Source: Actinomycetes bacterium
Lineage (GTDB): Bacteria; Actinomycetota; Acidimicrobiia; Acidimicrobiales; RAAP-2
Assembly: GCA_021793395.1 (NCBI GenBank)
Contig: JAJYSU010000019.1
Span: forward strand, 1-38,000
Length of the DNA stretch: 38,000 nucleotides
Direction of reading: 5' to 3'
Position numbers and translations under genes: made by a program. Positions 26,819-34,386 of the stretch are shown one piece after another; position 1 is the stretch's first letter, and every line of letters starts with the position of its first letter. Under the pieces are notes generated by a model, which did no database searches, was not told the origin of the DNA, and was given only the letters and a program-made list of their open reading frames with translations.

Positions 26819-28309
26819 ATGCACTCATCGCTGTGGTTGACATTCCTACTCGTCGTGCCCGTCGTCGGCGCGGCCCTGGCCGCGGTGTCGCGTGCGCGCG
26901 CCTACGCGGTGGCCGTGGTGACCGCGACCGTCGAGCTAGTTCTCTCGCTGATCGTCCTCGTCCTCTACAACGCGCACATCGCGGGCGCGCACACGCTCGA
27001 TTTCGCCGGGCGCTGGGTGCTCTCGGCGCCACTGGGCCTCGCGTACGACGTGGCAATCGACGGGATCTCGGTGTTCATGGTGGTACTGACCGCGCTCGTC
27101 GTGTGGTTGGCACTGCTCGGGGCCCGCGAGCGGCGACGTGAGCCGGCATTCGTTGCCTGGCTCCTCCTCCTTACGGCCTTCACGATGGGCAGCTTCGTGG
27201 CCCACGACCTGTTCGAGTTCTTCATCTTCTTCGAGTTGACTCTCGTCCCGTCGTACTTCATCATCGCCCAGTGGGGGGGACGGGAGCGCTCGCGCGCCGC
27301 GCTTAAGTTCTTCGTCTACACGTTCTCCGGTTCGGCGTTCCTCTTCGTGGGAACGCTGTACCTGGGCTTCGCGCACCAGCACCAGACCGGTGGCGCGTTG
27401 ACGTTCTCGTACTCGGCGCTAACGTCGACCGCGATGAGTCACGGCACGGCGGTGTGGCTCTTCGTGGCCTTCGCGATCGCCTTCGCGGTTAAGTCGCCTC
27501 TCTGGCCCCTGCACACCTGGTCACCCATCACGTACGCGGAGTCTCCGACCGCCGGATCGATCGAGTTTTCGGCCCTCCTGGCGAAGTTGGGGTCGTACGG
27601 GCTGCTGCGTTTCGCCGTGGGACTCTTTCCGCTGGCGCTACCGGACATGCGGCCGGTGATGCTGACGTTGGCCGTCATTGGCATCGTGTACGGATCGGCG
27701 TTGGCCTGTGTGACGCCGGACCTCAAGCGACTGGTGGCCTACTCCTCCGTGGCGCAGATGGGATTCATCACCCTGGGCGTTATGACGGGCTCGAAGATTG
27801 CCATGGTGGGCGCGGTACTGCTGATGTTCAACCACGGCGTCATCACGGCCGGTTTCTTCCTCATTATCGGATTCCTCGAGCGACGCCGAGGGACCGCGAC
27901 GATCCGCGATCTCACGGGGCTCCAGGGGCCGGCGCCGGTGTTGGCCGGGCTCTTCACGGTGGTGATGCTGGCCTCGATCGGGTTGCCGGGCTTGTCGGGG
28001 TTCGTGAGCGAATACCTGATCCTGATCGGTACCTTCGCCACGCATACGTGGTGGGCGGTGGTCGCCACGCTCGGCGTGGTGCTGGCGGCCCTGTATCTCC
28101 TGTGGGCCTACCAGCGGGTCTTTCACGGCCGTGCGGAGGAGGCTAACGCGACGATCACTGACGCGTCGGGCGCCGAGCGCTGGGTTCTCGTGCCGGTGGT
28201 GCTCCTCATCGTCGTGCTGGGTGTCTTCCCCAAGCCGATGTTGGATCGCATCACGCCATCGGTGCAACAGTTGATTGAGCACGTCGCGCCGGCGGGGGTG
28301 AGCAAGTGA
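26819..28309 (+). CDS. nuoM: NADH-quinone oxidoreductase subunit M
   Basis: 496 residues with about 14 transmembrane helices. FEFFIFFELTLVPSYFIIAQWGG carries the TM5 glutamate, KSPLWPLHTWSPITYAESPTAGSIEFSALLAKLGSYGLLRF the channel Lys and His, and AYSSVAQMGFITLGV follows. It is the central antiporter-like proton pump. The ATG is two bases after the nuoL stop; its own TGA overlaps the GTG of nuoN. Loop VATYGV-like sites do not suggest unusual features; length and motifs are standard. Confidence 0.97.
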   Translation: MHSSLWLTFLLVVPVVGAALAAVSRARAYAVAVVTATVELVLSLIVLVLYNAHIAGAHTLDFAGRWVLSAPLGLAYDVAIDGISVFMVVLTALVVWLALLGARERRREPAFVAWLLLLTAFTMGSFVAHDLFEFFIFFELTLVPSYFIIAQWGGRERSRAALKFFVYTFSGSAFLFVGTLYLGFAHQHQTGGALTFSYSALTSTAMSHGTAVWLFVAFAIAFAVKSPLWPLHTWSPITYAESPTAGSIEFSALLAKLGSYGLLRFAVGLFPLALPDMRPVMLTLAVIGIVYGSALACVTPDLKRLVAYSSVAQMGFITLGVMTGSKIAMVGAVLLMFNHGVITAGFFLIIGFLERRRGTATIRDLTGLQGPAPVLAGLFTVVMLASIGLPGLSGFVSEYLILIGTFATHTWWAVVATLGVVLAALYLLWAYQRVFHGRAEEANATITDASGAERWVLVPVVLLIVVLGVFPKPMLDRITPSVQQLIEHVAPAGVSK

Positions 28310-29784
28310 ACCTGACCATCCCTTCCATTCACTACTTGGCGATCCTGCCAGTGATCGTGCTCCTCGGAGCGTCGCTGGTGCTGCTGGGTTCCGTCGCGCT
28401 CGTGCGCTCGCGAGTGTCGAACATCGTGGCGACCACGATTACGTCGCTCGCCGGACTGGCCGCTCTGGTGATCACCTTCATCCAGTGGGCGTACGTGGCC
28501 AATCACGGGGCCACGACGACGATCGCCCACGCCGTCGTACTCGACGGCTTCTCGGTGGTGGCTACCGGTGTCATCGCGGTTGCCCTGGTCATGACGACAC
28601 TGGTCGCCCATGACTGGGCCCGACGCGAGGATGTGCGCATCGCCGAGTACCAGGTGCTGGCGCTCGCCGCGAGTGCGGGCGCGGTTCTGATGACGCAGGC
28701 TAATGACCTGGTGGTGATCTTCCTCGGGCTGGAGATCCTCTCGATCGGTCTCTACGTCCTCGCCGCCTTCGATCGGCACCGTTCGTCGTCGGCCGAGGCG
28801 GCCCTGAAGTACTTCTTGCTCGGAAGTTTCGCGTCGGCCATCTTCGTGTACGGAGCCGCGCTGATTTACGGAGCCACGGGCTCGACCAACTTGAGTGACG
28901 TGTCGTACTTCCTCGGTGCCAACGTGTTGTTGCGTCCGGGGCTGCTCTACGCCGGAGGCGCCCTACTCCTGGTGGGCTTCGCGTTTAAGGTAGCGGCCGT
29001 CCCCTTCCATCTCTGGTCACCCGACGTCTACCAGGGGGCACCGACCCCGGTGACGGGCTACATGGCTTCGATCGTCAAGGTTGGCGCGTTCGCGGCACTG
29101 CTGCGCGTGCTCATCTCGGCTCTCGGCACGCAGATGGACACGTGGCGTCCGATCCTGTGGACGCTGATCGTGCTCACGACGCTCGTGGGAGCCAGTTTGG
29201 GCATTGTGCAGCGCAACGTCAAGCGGATGCTGGCGTACTCGTCGGTCAACCACGCGGGCTTCATGCTGCTGGGCGTGTGGGCGGCAACGGCGCGCGGAAC
29301 GGCCGCGACGTTGTTCTACGTGATGACGTACGCGCCGCTGGTCGTGGCCACGTTCGCCATCGTGACGTTGGTGGGAGGGCGCGGCGACGATGATCACGAC
29401 GTCGACTACTACCGCGGACTCGCGCGGCGTCAGCCGTGGTTGGGCGGGGCGCTGGCGCTCTTTCTACTGGCCCAGTTGGGGGCGCCACTTACGACGGGGT
29501 TCTACGCGAAGTTTGTCGTACTGGCGAGCGCCGTGGACGCCGGGGGGTCGGCGCTCGCGCTGATTGCTCTGTTGGGCGCGGCGATCGCCGCGTTCTTCTA
29601 CCTACGCTGGATCGTGGCGCTCTACGCCGAGGGTGACGAACGGGCTATCGCGCACCACGTCGCCGTTCCGAAAGCCACGGCCGTCGTGATCGTGCTCGGC
29701 GTGGCCGTGACGATGGTGTTTGGCGTGTGGCCGGGCCCGATCGCGGCGCTGGCTCAGCACGCCACCCTCCTGTTCACGCCGTGA
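28306..29784 (+). CDS. nuoN: NADH-quinone oxidoreductase subunit N
   Basis: 492 residues with about 14 transmembrane helices. VIFLGLEILSIGLYVLAAF carries the TM5 glutamate. FKVAAVPFHLWSPDVYQGAPTPVTGYMASIVKVGAFAALLR and AYSSVNHAGFMLLGV are the family blocks. It is the antiporter-like subunit nearest NuoK. It starts at GTG 28306, overlapping the nuoM stop by four bases. Its TGA overlaps the GTG of the following ATP-grasp gene, so that gene is coupled to the operon. Confidence 0.97.
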   Translation: MNLTIPSIHYLAILPVIVLLGASLVLLGSVALVRSRVSNIVATTITSLAGLAALVITFIQWAYVANHGATTTIAHAVVLDGFSVVATGVIAVALVMTTLVAHDWARREDVRIAEYQVLALAASAGAVLMTQANDLVVIFLGLEILSIGLYVLAAFDRHRSSSAEAALKYFLLGSFASAIFVYGAALIYGATGSTNLSDVSYFLGANVLLRPGLLYAGGALLLVGFAFKVAAVPFHLWSPDVYQGAPTPVTGYMASIVKVGAFAALLRVLISALGTQMDTWRPILWTLIVLTTLVGASLGIVQRNVKRMLAYSSVNHAGFMLLGVWAATARGTAATLFYVMTYAPLVVATFAIVTLVGGRGDDDHDVDYYRGLARRQPWLGGALALFLLAQLGAPLTTGFYAKFVVLASAVDAGGSALALIALLGAAIAAFFYLRWIVALYAEGDERAIAHHVAVPKATAVVIVLGVAVTMVFGVWPGPIAALAQHATLLFTP

Positions 29785-30620
29785 GGCGCGTGGCGATCGC
29801 CACCTGCCAGGGCGACGTCGATCCCGATAGCGCGGTGTTGGTCGGCGCGCTCGCGAGCGAGGGGGTGGACGCGCGGCTGCTCGCCTGGGACGATCCCGAG
29901 GCCGACTGGGACGCCGACGACCTCGTGGTGGTGCGTTCCACCTGGGACTACACCAGTCGGCGCGAGGAGTTCCTCACGTGGGCGCGCGGCGTCGCGCGAC
30001 TGGAGAATCCCTACTCCGTGCTGGCCTACTCCAGCGACAAGAGCTACCTGGCGGACCTGGCGACGCGCGGGTGGCCGGTCGTGCCGTCGCGCTTCAGCGA
30101 CGTGGGGACGAGCCCGACGTTTCCCGAGGGCCCCTTCGTGGTCAAGCCCCGCGTGGGCGCGGGTTCGCTCGACGCGGAGCGCTACGCGTCGCACGAGCAG
30201 GAGCGCGCCCGGGCTCACGTGGCGGCGCTGCACGCGCGCGGGCGTGACGTCGTGATTCAGCCCTACGTCGAGTCGGTGGACACCGTGGGTGAGCGCGCCC
30301 TCGTCTTCGTCGAGGGTGTGCTGACTCACGCCCTGGTCAAGGGGGCCATGCTTATCGCCCCCGCCGACGAGCGCGACGCCCTCTTTCGCCGTGAGCAGAT
30401 GTCGGTCACGACACCCGAGCCCGAGGCCGTGGACGTGGCAACCCGTCTCCTGGCCGACGAGGGCTACGGTGAGCTGCTCTACGCTCGAGTGGACCTGGTG
30501 GCGACCGCGCAGGGGTGGGCGGTAATGGAACTCGAACTGGTCGAGCCGTCACTCTTCCTCTCCTTTAATGGTGCCGCGGCGCGCACGCTGGCGCGAGCGA
30601 TCGCGCGGCGCGTGAGCTGA
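29781..30620 (+). CDS. ATP-grasp domain protein of unknown substrate
   Basis: 279 residues from GTG 29781 (GTGA overlap with nuoN). The frame is open further upstream inside nuoN, but the first beta strand (RRVAIATCQGDVDPD) starts here. The pre-ATP-grasp domain has DLVVVRSTWDYTSRREEFLTWARGV and SDKSYLADLATRGWPVVPS. The ATP-grasp fold has GPFVVKPRVGAGSLDAERY, VIQPYVESVDTVGERALVFVEGVLTHALVKG and the metal-binding end VMELELVEPSLFLSFNG. The fold resembles glutathione synthase/RimK-like ligases, which join a carboxylate to an amine or thiol using ATP. The substrate cannot be told from sequence. Coupling to nuo may be incidental. Confidence 0.85.
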   Translation: MRRVAIATCQGDVDPDSAVLVGALASEGVDARLLAWDDPEADWDADDLVVVRSTWDYTSRREEFLTWARGVARLENPYSVLAYSSDKSYLADLATRGWPVVPSRFSDVGTSPTFPEGPFVVKPRVGAGSLDAERYASHEQERARAHVAALHARGRDVVIQPYVESVDTVGERALVFVEGVLTHALVKGAMLIAPADERDALFRREQMSVTTPEPEAVDVATRLLADEGYGELLYARVDLVATAQGWAVMELELVEPSLFLSFNGAAARTLARAIARRVS

Positions 30621-30850: not shown

Positions 30851-33838
30851 CTACTCGCGCTCGTTCCGACGCCGGGCCGCGAGGAGAACCTCGTCGGGTA
30901 CGACCGTGCCCGGACGGTTGGCGGGATCGTTCGCGAGTAGTCGACCCACGACGGGGATCTCCGTCAGGCTCTCCGCGCGCAGCGTCGCGAGCACGACCGG
31001 GACGAAGCTCTCGGCCGCGGGGTAGACGAGGTGGCGGGGCAGCCAGGTGGGGTAGTACTTGGCGTTGAACGACCACAAACTCTCGATGGGTAGGACGCCG
31101 GACAGGCGACGTAATGCCCAGCGCTCTACTCGCGTGAAGGTTCCCTCACCGCGTTCGGCGTCCAGGACCGAGCGGAACGCGGCGAAGTTGAGGCTCAGCC
31201 CGCGTCCCCCGCGTTCGCGCAGGTACTCGATGGTCGAGCACAGTGCGAAGTCGATGAGGCCGTTGGGGTGCTCTCCGGGGTCACGGCGCATCAGGTCCAG
31301 CGAGTAGCCGTGGATGGCCGGAGACGGGACGAACTGGCAGACCGCGGCCGGTCGGTCGTCGGGGCCGAAGACGACGGTGAGCAGGAGACCCTTGTCGCGG
31401 GGATCGAAGAGTCGACCAAGCATCATCGAGAATCCACGCTCACCTTCGCCGCGGCGCAGCTTGGCGATGAGTTCGAGGAGTGGCGGCACGAGTGACGGAT
31501 CGATCGTGGCGGGATCCAGAAACTCCGCGCGATATCCGTGGCGTAACAGGCGACTGCGGGCCTGGCGCAGCCCCTTCATCCGTCCGCCGTCGAGCGAGAA
31601 CGTCGCGCAGTCGACGATCGCCTCGTCGCCGAGGTAGAGGTAGTGCAGGCCGGCCGCGTGGTAGAGCGGAAGCCAGTCCTCACCCGCGCCCATGACGCCG
31701 ATGGTCCATCCGTGGTGCTCGGCGTACGCGCGAAAGGCGCTGAAGACGTCACCGCGTTCGGCGACCGGCCCGATGGGGTCGGGAGAGATGAGCGCGACGC
31801 CCCCGTAGACGGCGTAGGCGACCAGGGAGTCGCGGAAGAAAAAGAACTGCTTGTCGTCACGCAGGGCGAAGTAGTCGAGTGTGCCGCGACCGTGGCGACG
31901 TACGATCTCCCGGGCGCGTCGCTCGGCGAGGCGCCGTTCGGTGCTGGAGGCGGTGGCGGAGAGACGTCGATCGACGACTGGTCGGGTGAGCAGGTAGAGG
32001 ACCGACACGACCAACGACAGTCCGACGGTGAGGAGCACCGGGTTGAAGAAGTCGTTGACCTGGTCGGGCAGGATCACGTTGGTTTGGCCGATGAGGCGCT
32101 CGGTGCACCCGACGAGGATGACGGCGAAGGAGGGCAGGTGTTGGTTGCGTGCGGAGGCCTCGACGCCGAGCGCCGCTGCCACCACCGCCACCACCGCGAT
32201 TCCCGCCAGGCCCGGGAGCGCCGCGCGTGCGCTGACGCGGTCGGTGGCGGCACGAAAGTGGTCACGCGTCATCACGAGCCCGACGATGAGGGCCAGCGCG
32301 ACGAGGGACGACGCGACGCTGCCGCCACGCGCGAGATGGGCGACAGTAGTGATCGCCAGCGTCGCGAGCGCGAGGAACCAGGCCCGCCGCTGGCCGCGCC
32401 GCACGCCGCGCGCCAGCATGAGCAGGCCGATGCCCGCCATCGCGGTGACGGCCGCCGCCGAGCGCGCCACGTCGAGCGGCAGAACGGCCAGCACCGCGTT
32501 CAGCCGGGTGCGCAGGATGGGCCGCACCGTCACCACCACGTTGACTAAACCATCGAGAGCCAGGAGTCCGGCGGCGACGCGGCGGATCGTGCGCTCGCGG
32601 CGCTGGGCGGTGAGCGCGTCGCGATCCATCGGGAAGGGGTCGCCGGTGGGCCACGAACCGACGGTGGTGGTCTCGTCGCTGAGCGTGGTGCGCCACGGGG
32701 CCCCGGCGATGAGACGCTCGAGTACCGTGACGTGGCGTCGGTGGGGGGACTGGCCGGCCAGCAGGCGCACTTGGACCGCCGACGCCGCCTCGACCTCGAC
32801 GACTCCCAGGCGCCGCACGGCGCTGAAGACGGGGGGCAGCCCTAGGCGGCCGCGGCGCTCGATGATGACACTTCGCGAGGGGCCGGGGGCGGCGCAGATG
32901 CCGCGGTCTAGGAAGGCGAGCGCCGGGCTGGGTGAACCGCCCACGATGGCCCCGGCGCCGCCGCGCTCGGCCACGCGCCGTGCGTACTCGAGAGCGTCGA
33001 CGTCGTCGACGGTCGTGAGCGCCAGTGGCTCGAAGCGGTGAGTGCGCTCGACGCGAGCTCCGCGGTCGAAGCGGCGTCGCACGAGCAGCGCGGCGGCGCC
33101 GGCCACCAGCGCTTCGAGCACGATGATCGCGAGCATCGTGACGATGAAGTTGCCCCAGAAACTGTGCGTGTGAAGCGTGTGCACGCGAAGATGATGGTGC
33201 GTGAAGTGATTGAAGAGCCGCACCAGTGTGTGGGCGAGGTCCACCAGCGTCAGTGCGATGAGTACTGCCCAGATCCATGCACCGAGGCGGCGGTACAGGA
33301 CGCGAGACGCCACGAAGCGCTCGAGCGCCGTCGGATCTTCGAGGCGCTCGGCGTCCGCCTGGTCGGCGGGGTCGGCGCGTGACGTGTCGACGACGCACGA
33401 GCCGGCGGCGATCGCCAGGTCGCGCGTGCCCTGCGCGGTCGCTACCTGGATGATGAGTTCTCGTGCGAGGCTCACCCCCAGCGCCTCGACGGCGCGCTGG
33501 GCGCGCACGTCGTCGCGCAGTGCCAGGTCGTCACTCCCGGGTAGCACGTAGAGAGTGTGATCGGGGCGAGCGCAGAACGCGGTGATCGCGCTGGCCAGTT
33601 CGGACAGCGCGGTCCACGTCGCGTCGATGAAGGTGGCGAAATCGCCCTCCCCGGACGGGTGCAGGAGGTTGCCCGCGATGACGACGACGGCGGGGTCGTC
33701 GATGTCGCCGAGTAGCCGTATAAGTTCGCGTATCGGGCGGCTCGAGGGCGACGTGCGTGGAGTCAGCGACAGATCGCTGAGCACGTACACGTGGCGCCCG
33801 AAGGGAACCGGTACGATCGCGCGCTCACTGGCTCCCAC
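30851..33838 (-). CDS. fusion: degenerate metallophosphoesterase, membrane region, DUF2156 (lysyl-PG-synthase-type) domain
   Basis: 995 residues from GTG 33838. Residues 13-150 look like a calcineurin-type phosphoesterase, but the metal motifs are altered: DLS at 22-24 (normally DxH), GN at 56-57 (normally GD), GSDD at 101-104 (normally GNHD). Transmembrane helices lie at about 186-208 and 229-252, separated by a His-rich segment (seven His in 211-225). Another four to six helices lie at about 420-620. Residues 640-960 match the DUF2156/phosphatidylglycerol lysyltransferase C-terminal fold (DKQFFFFRDSLVAYAVYGGVALISPDPIGP, GVMGAGEDWLPLYHAAGLHYLYLGDEAIVD, GLSLNFAAFR). MprF-type enzymes use this domain to move an aminoacyl group from tRNA to lipid. 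A longer frame to 33913 would overlap the divergent gene, and the -10 7 nt upstream supports 33838. Confidence 0.8.
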   Translation of the reverse strand: MGASERAIVPVPFGRHVYVLSDLSLTPRTSPSSRPIRELIRLLGDIDDPAVVVIAGNLLHPSGEGDFATFIDATWTALSELASAITAFCARPDHTLYVLPGSDDLALRDDVRAQRAVEALGVSLARELIIQVATAQGTRDLAIAAGSCVVDTSRADPADQADAERLEDPTALERFVASRVLYRRLGAWIWAVLIALTLVDLAHTLVRLFNHFTHHHLRVHTLHTHSFWGNFIVTMLAIIVLEALVAGAAALLVRRRFDRGARVERTHRFEPLALTTVDDVDALEYARRVAERGGAGAIVGGSPSPALAFLDRGICAAPGPSRSVIIERRGRLGLPPVFSAVRRLGVVEVEAASAVQVRLLAGQSPHRRHVTVLERLIAGAPWRTTLSDETTTVGSWPTGDPFPMDRDALTAQRRERTIRRVAAGLLALDGLVNVVVTVRPILRTRLNAVLAVLPLDVARSAAAVTAMAGIGLLMLARGVRRGQRRAWFLALATLAITTVAHLARGGSVASSLVALALIVGLVMTRDHFRAATDRVSARAALPGLAGIAVVAVVAAALGVEASARNQHLPSFAVILVGCTERLIGQTNVILPDQVNDFFNPVLLTVGLSLVVSVLYLLTRPVVDRRLSATASSTERRLAERRAREIVRRHGRGTLDYFALRDDKQFFFFRDSLVAYAVYGGVALISPDPIGPVAERGDVFSAFRAYAEHHGWTIGVMGAGEDWLPLYHAAGLHYLYLGDEAIVDCATFSLDGGRMKGLRQARSRLLRHGYRAEFLDPATIDPSLVPPLLELIAKLRRGEGERGFSMMLGRLFDPRDKGLLLTVVFGPDDRPAAVCQFVPSPAIHGYSLDLMRRDPGEHPNGLIDFALCSTIEYLRERGGRGLSLNFAAFRSVLDAERGEGTFTRVERWALRRLSGVLPIESLWSFNAKYYPTWLPRHLVYPAAESFVPVVLATLRAESLTEIPVVGRLLANDPANRPGTVVPDEVLLAARRRNERE

Positions 33839-33855: not shown

Positions 33856-34386
33856 ATGTGGTCCGGGTCGCCCGGGCCCACGACCGAGCGACGACTGATG
33901 AGCCCCGAGACACCGCGCGAGAACTGGTTGTGGCGCGGCGAGGCGCGACGTTCGGGCGCCGCGGTGATCTTCGACATCGACGGTGTTCTGGCCGACGCTG
34001 CCGGACGCCAGCACTACCTTGACTGGGGAGACTGGCGTAGTTTCTTCGACGCGTGCGGGGACGACCCGGTGATCGAGGAGATCGAGCGACTCCTCGAGTT
34101 GCTCGACGCCTCCTTGGCGGTGATCCTGGTGACCGGACGACCTCGACGCGTGCAGCCCCATACGGTGGCCTGGCTGGAGCGCTACCAACTGCGCTGGGAC
34201 GTCTTGATCATGCGTGAGTACGGGGACTACTCGGGGGTGGACGAGTACAAGCGTGGCGCGGTGCGCGACCTTGAGGCGTACGGCTTCGACGTGCGACTCG
34301 CGTTGGACGACGACCCCAAGAATCACGCCATGTACGTCGCCGAGGGCGTGCCGTGCATCTACATCCACTCCGGCTACTACCAGTAG
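33856..34386 (+). CDS. HAD phosphatase resembling the T4 polynucleotide-kinase 3'-phosphatase domain
   Basis: 176 residues from ATG 33856; a second ATG (33898) is possible but lacks the -10. HAD motif I is VIFDIDGVLAD (nucleophile Asp and acid Asp in DID). Motif II is VILVTGRPRR, motif III Lys is in DEYKRGAVRDLEAY, and motif IV is LALDDDPKNH. The layout of motif II followed by T..WLERYQLRWDVLIMREYGDYSGVDEYK, then IDD-type Asp and a C-terminal G-V-P-C-I-Y-I-H-S-G strand, matches the 3'-phosphatase half of T4 Pnkp. No kinase half is attached. Such enzymes remove 3' phosphates or 2',3'-cyclic phosphates from nucleic-acid ends. Its function here is inferred only. It is convergent with hemY (13-base gap). 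Confidence 0.75.
   Translation: MWSGSPGPTTERRLMSPETPRENWLWRGEARRSGAAVIFDIDGVLADAAGRQHYLDWGDWRSFFDACGDDPVIEEIERLLELLDASLAVILVTGRPRRVQPHTVAWLERYQLRWDVLIMREYGDYSGVDEYKRGAVRDLEAYGFDVRLALDDDPKNHAMYVAEGVPCIYIHSGYYQ

Follow-up and report, generated by a model that had tools for sequence, protein, structure and literature searches.

The window analyzed here, a 38,000-nucleotide stretch of an actinomycete contig, encodes on its reverse strand a three-part protein, in which an N-terminal domain derived from a metallophosphoesterase (MPE) is followed by a membrane domain and then by an aminoacyl-lipid synthase of the LysX/MprF type. Sequence comparison establishes the fusion, the splitting of the MPE domain, the loss of its metal site in the window's lineage, and purifying selection on what remains; a present role in binding or regulating something is plausible. 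Our preferred reading, to which we give a probability of roughly 60%, is that a former phosphoesterase now acts as a non-catalytic positioning or regulatory module of the synthase.

Layout of the fused gene

The longest frame opens at GTG 33913 and codes for 1020 amino acids, GTG 33838 (codon 26) being an alternative start; residue numbers throughout count from GTG 33913. The features are as follows.

30851 to 33838, reverse strand: whole fused gene (likely start, GTG 33838); homologues of the same layout were found
33389 to 33805, reverse strand: MPE domain, first half (residues 37 to 175), from alignment, window-free profiles, and fold search
33065 to 33292, reverse strand: two-helix membrane hairpin interrupting the MPE domain (about residues 208 to 283), from hydropathy, with helices near 213 to 231 and 260 to 278
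33137 to 33220, reverse strand: His-rich loop joining the hairpin helices (about residues 232 to 259), predicted to lie outside
32738 to 33028, reverse strand: MPE domain, second half (residues 296 to 392), from alignment and window-free profiles
31964 to 32611, reverse strand: LysX-like membrane domain (residues 435 to 650), from LysX profile and hydropathy
31022 to 31909, reverse strand: LPG_synthase_C (double GNAT) synthase domain, PF09924, from Pfam
33856 to 34386, forward strand: HAD_PNKP-type phosphatase-like divergent neighbor, from Pfam, often near the fused gene

The membrane domain had five helices above the hydropathy threshold, with a sixth (near residues 508 to 527) judged by eye. 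By hydropathy, the two hairpin helices lay at the same place in all eight proteins examined, including intact fused and stand-alone copies. An MPE-like domain fused to a membrane DUF2156 enzyme had originally been placed at 33379 to 33838; its MPE likeness stood, but that interval holds the first half only, the second half (32738 to 33028) lying beyond the membrane hairpin. The fusion itself was borne out by the membrane domain and by the PF09924 (LPG_synthase_C) match at residues 669 to 964 (E value, 4.5e-62; 210.2 bits against a cut-off of 27.5).

NCBIfam profiles for LysX (residues 435 to 991; profile positions 10 to 576 of 1102) and MprF (residues 436 to 979; profile positions 315 to 837 of 841) had matches confined to the membrane-plus-synthase part. 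The window protein missed both equivalog cut-offs (269.7 bits against 742 for LysX, 225.5 against 600 for MprF) and had neither a LysRS domain nor an N-terminal flippase. Solved relatives of the synthase domain were MprF synthases (6lvf and 4v34). Among 61 fused proteins (the 81 collected rows, described below, minus 14 stand-alone and 6 cut or duplicate rows), 83 synthase positions were conserved in at least 95%, and the window keeps the conserved blocks. The gene product probably attaches amino acids from tRNA to membrane lipids. A second PF09924 match in the window's genome lies on contig C10 (22965 to 23786; 419-residue frame; score, 114.7).

LysX and MprF are described, in passages of PMC10580965 and PMC8131360, as one core with different attached parts, and the former source gives corynebacterial LysX, which makes Lys-DAG, six predicted membrane helices. 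The LysX of mycobacteria and corynebacteria is like the window protein in its membrane domain and GNAT-type synthase domain; it has a C-terminal lysyl-tRNA synthetase, whereas the window protein has none and carries an N-terminal MPE-derived domain. MprF, a bifunctional flippase/synthase, has the synthase domain in common with it, and its N-terminal part is a membrane flippase, in contrast to the MPE-derived domain with its two-helix hairpin. Searches of open-access papers found no description of an MPE-derived domain joined to an aminoacyl-lipid synthase.

Descent and erosion of the MPE domain

Intact members such as L063 have the motifs SDLHL, AGD, GNHD, VEHG, and GHTH; their counterparts in the window are SDLSL, AGN, GSDD, AAG, and GGSP. 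The three changes read from the DNA in the original prediction were confirmed in the first half: DxH is DLS (D47-L-S49), GD is GN (G81-N82), and GNHD is GSDD (G126-S127-D128-D129). The loss of metal ligands proposed with them extends to the fourth His (EHG to AAG, A170) and to the fifth motif, in the second half (GHTH to GGSP, G325-G-S-P328), leaving D47 alone of the eight motif residues. Only one of the seven metal ligands survives, and because the site keeps no His, a non-catalytic domain, as first proposed, is the best reading; that catalysis was lost is well supported.

Pfam gave no match at an E value of 1 or better for the first 390 residues of the window protein. Two profiles built without the window matched the domain, one from 13 stand-alone copies (E value, 2e-10) and one from seven copies, one of them stand-alone, that keep 7 or 8 of the 8 motif residues (E value, 1.4e-38); among 200 shuffled domains, the best E values were 1.1 and 0.8, respectively. 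When a profile of the window's clade was compared with one of the stand-alone copies, the probability was 98.7 over 348 columns. Metallophos was recognized by Pfam in the orthologue L063 (6.2e-08), in 13/13 stand-alone copies at 0.01 or better, and in only 4/17 members of a mixed alignment. Descent of the N-terminal domain from a metallophosphoesterase is supported by comparisons of this kind. The window's genome (2.13 Mb assembly; completeness, 91.87%) had no PF00149 (Metallophos) match, and all 14 control genomes had one.

The AlphaFold model of the N-terminal domain (six sequences; mean pLDDT, 54) was fair to good over about the first 130 residues and poor beyond, with much of the second half under 40; the full-length model was too weak to use (mean pLDDT, 40). 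Structure prediction, suggested at the outset as a check, gave a mixed picture: the low-confidence model of the N-terminal domain superposed on LpxH across both MPE halves (VIA-align; Z, 12.8; 201 residues between 7 and 355; rmsd, 4.3), with LpxH entries at ranks 1 to 19, but Foldseek found nothing at an E value of 0.001 or better (best, 3.4e-03; first row, an MPE). As modeled, the domain probably has the MPE fold. Designed-protein matches (E values, 0.0023 and 0.0052), which covered one short strand region, were dismissed, and weak DNA_pol_E_B Pfam matches (3/17 members) point at most to a fold in common. Non-catalytic proteins such as DNA polymerase B-subunits and Vps29 use the MPE fold without a full metal site and are not known to play a part in lipid aminoacylation; the B-subunits appear in the window's fold list through resemblance of fold only.

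LpxH, the UDP-2,3-diacylglucosamine pyrophosphohydrolase, has as its ligands in Pseudomonas aeruginosa Asp8, His10, Asp41, Asn79, His114, His195, and His197, and His114 and His195 stand on either side of a helical insertion that holds the lipid and lies between residues 118 and 174 (from sections of PMC5016852). As placed there, the insertion falls between the same two motifs as the window's membrane hairpin. LpxH is an enzyme in its own right, peripheral to the membrane and with its seven ligands complete, whereas in the window the ligands are lost and the insertion is a membrane hairpin; sequence similarity between them is weak (E values, 0.0072 with the stand-alone profile and 0.29 with the family profile). 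Because the hairpin and the LpxH insertion hold parallel positions, the analogy suggests a membrane lipid phosphate as the ancestral substrate.

In a single-protein search of 198 genomes from the window's order, 46 had a match to the domain, which in 43 lay in an open frame of at least 976 residues. Regions were fetched from 40 of the 45 other matching genomes; a search with the window protein recovered 39/40 fetched loci, all its matches extending into the synthase domain except two cut by contig ends (L043 and L044), and the fortieth genome (G002) has the MPE domain and lacks the synthase. Profile searches gave matches in 32/247 genomes of the class and 68/396 of the phylum, the phylum matches comprising both fused proteins some 1000 residues long and shorter frames, mostly of 340 to 560 residues. 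The fusion also occurs outside the order, in families f71 and f90 of the class and f97 and f124 of the phylum.

Motif loss throughout the orthologues, posed as a further check, was not what we found. All eight motif residues are kept in 14/14 stand-alone copies and in 6/67 fused copies; another fused copy keeps seven, and 52/67 keep two or fewer (81 rows, including five cut or duplicate ones, namely, L002, L004, L005, L043, and L125). With those five rows left out, the seven metal ligands are complete in 6/62 fused copies and reduced to two or fewer in 48/62. These fused-copy rates describe the fetched loci (40/45 of the other matching genomes of the order plus part of the class and phylum matches), most of which were gathered by searches with the MPE domain itself, best matches first. 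Eighteen of 20 additional stand-alone copies are intact; the others are L163, without motif 5 (its frame is perhaps broken), and L168, which sits close to a contig end and is missing most of motif 1.

A tree was built without the eight motif residues and rooted on 12 stand-alone copies (L002, L005, and L125 dropped). It separates the rooting copies from the rest at 100/99, and the decayed group requires five changes on it, at least three on well-supported branches. We take these changes to mean that the metal site was lost repeatedly once the fusion had formed, the method counting changes and not their direction.

The stand-alone MPE proteins of other Actinomycetota (L104 to L116 and L139) are homologous to the fused copies along the whole split domain, with the hairpin in 4/4 examined (L104, L105, L113, and L139). 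They are 448 to 516 amino acids long (L139, 677), have the eight motif residues intact, and carry no in-frame synthase domain. Their substrate is probably not an aminoacyl lipid, since 11/13 of their genomes have no PF09924 match. Pfam searches of five recurrent neighbors of stand-alone copies (three oxidoreductases, one secretion ATPase, and one that Pfam did not match) gave no lipid-pathway hint. L139, from the one-contig genome G002, is an intact stand-alone copy and tree neighbor of an intact fused copy in a genome without PF09924; an intact domain can therefore persist without the synthase. The same gene, as L059, was missed by the search of fetched loci with the window protein and found by profile. 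It is possible that G002 lost the synthase part. L139 (8731 to 10761) shares neighbors with the fused locus L046, one of them fatty-acid desaturase-like.

Selection on the domain and its possible present role

Against the closest complete relative (L001), dN/dS was highest in the first half (0.269; 0.167 to 0.458) and lowest in the synthase (0.035), with values of 0.069 for the linker and hairpin, 0.078 for the second half, and 0.108 for the membrane domain. Eight relatives gave ranges of 0.23 to 0.58 for the first half (the top value against L129), 0.03 to 0.51 for the linker and hairpin, and 0.04 to 0.28 for the second half, and seven gave 0.11 to 0.37 for the membrane domain and 0.035 to 0.16 for the synthase; the distant comparisons among these, whose dS is high, are less trustworthy and show no particular constraint on the hairpin. 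Columns conserved in at least 14 of the 15 members of the window's clade numbered 13/139 in the first half (9%), 19/117 in the linker and hairpin, 31/97 in the second half, 53/216 in the membrane domain, and 185/306 in the synthase. Neither MPE half has a conserved His among these 15 members. The second half carries a clade motif, GGaxrPALafLdxGxCAxPGPsR, around G325 to R347, and the first half was not matched in L124 and L126. On these measures, purifying selection still acts on the MPE domain, and more strongly on its second half than on its first; because of its lower dN/dS and greater number of conserved columns, the second half probably keeps a role, with the first half loosening.

For the reading as a positioning or regulatory module, the proposed mechanism starts from an aminoacyl-tRNA-dependent synthase of the LysX/MprF type joined to an N-terminal domain that would derive from an LpxH-like metallophosphoesterase bearing a membrane hairpin. 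After fusion, selection would have kept the synthase activity, while fold and membrane contacts stayed; because that activity was what selection kept, the phosphoesterase chemistry would have eroded several times. The domain would no longer hydrolyze phosphoesters. Anchored by the hairpin, it would lie next to the synthase domain on the cytoplasmic side of the membrane, and it may help to place the synthase at the membrane, present lipid, or regulate the synthase. A positioning role is proposed by analogy with MprF, whose membrane part, by a suggestion repeated in a passage of PMC8131360, positions the catalytic domain. The poor conservation of the first half, its dN/dS of up to 0.58, and its unmatched state in L124 and L126 count against a module and are as drift predicts.

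Those same values lend themselves to a vestigial domain that neither binds nor regulates anything, the MPE part decaying and kept only because insertion and folding need the hairpin and frame. Of all the parts, it is the first half whose dN/dS against the closest relative is highest. The synthase can, moreover, do without the MPE domain, as short-frame synthases occur in the order. PF09924 was matched in 77/198 of its genomes. Besides those in long frames, 18 matches fall in frames of 550 to 700 residues, which leave no room for the MPE domain; some belong to a second synthase gene in a genome that also has a fused copy (G055, G061, and G091). At least G063 has a synthase frame of 920 residues for which the fetched stretch gave no MPE match. 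The fused and stand-alone loci were mostly gathered through the MPE domain, by searches that would miss copies that had lost it. What speaks against mere decay is the second half, with a lower range of dN/dS than the first half over the eight comparisons, a share of conserved columns above that of the membrane domain, and a motif of its own. We consider this alternative credible yet unlikely.

Other readings and significance

As cut in the window, the loop between the hairpin helices has 8 His in 35 residues. Loops with 4 to 8 His occur in 15/18 rows of the window, its genus, and the nearest named relatives, and loops with 4 or more His in only 2/63 other rows; given the kinship among the rows and loop ends set by hydropathy, the p-value of this contrast carries little weight. 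Both flanks are Arg-rich, and the positive-inside rule therefore predicts that the loop lies outside. From the His-rich loop and this predicted topology, it could be proposed for the window's genus that the loop senses acid or metal and that the hairpin signals to a pseudo-phosphoesterase with a new motif, switching the synthase. We hold this to be rather improbable; if it were true, one protein would both detect envelope stress and alter membrane charge.

An enzyme with an altered site, using one metal or none and other residues on a lipid phosphate, has a precedent of sorts in LpxH, which according to a section of PMC5016852 has Arg80 where a catalytic His is usual. Arg is the commonest residue at that position in the fused copies (26/67), and D47 is kept. 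The window, however, has Asp there and not Arg, and with the ligand losses and the lack of a conserved His in the MPE halves of its clade, such activity seems quite improbable.

A takeover of the lost chemistry by the divergent HAD_PNKP-type neighbor draws on striking counts. Among loci with at least 1200 bases upstream, such a gene lies upstream and divergent within about 2.3 kb in 31/45 strongly decayed loci (0 to 2 of 8 residues), the window included, and in 2/8 intermediate loci, against 0/7 intact or nearly intact fused and 0/13 stand-alone loci. Nonetheless, 5/7 genomes whose fused copy is intact or nearly so carry the HAD gene elsewhere, no HAD gene match was obtained for two genomes with decayed copies from the window's genus, and independent pairs on the tree lend the association no support. 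With these genome places and the tree against it, functional replacement was rejected as very improbable.

Two observations on neighboring genes stand apart from these readings: genes resembling, by eye, NADH dehydrogenase subunits recur next to the gene in 31/80 loci, and in the window an ATP-grasp-like gene (29727 to 30620; Pfam E value, 0.28) overlaps the end of a large membrane-protein gene (28306 to 29784).

A chance resemblance with no MPE domain at all, for which Pfam's failure to recognize the window domain and the low confidence of the model might be cited, is hardly credible beside window-free profiles far above shuffles, the profile-to-profile comparison, and the LpxH superposition.

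Read as a former phosphoesterase turned module, the N-terminal domain is a new and eroding partner of an already known synthase core. Besides flippase and tRNA synthetase, a phosphoesterase-derived domain would be a third kind of partner for aminoacyl-lipid synthases, in a fusion spread over much of a bacterial order and beyond. Intact, half-lost, and lost versions occur in one family, with intact stand-alone relatives, and therefore form a usable natural series, which lets one ask how an enzyme domain turns non-catalytic and what its original activity was.
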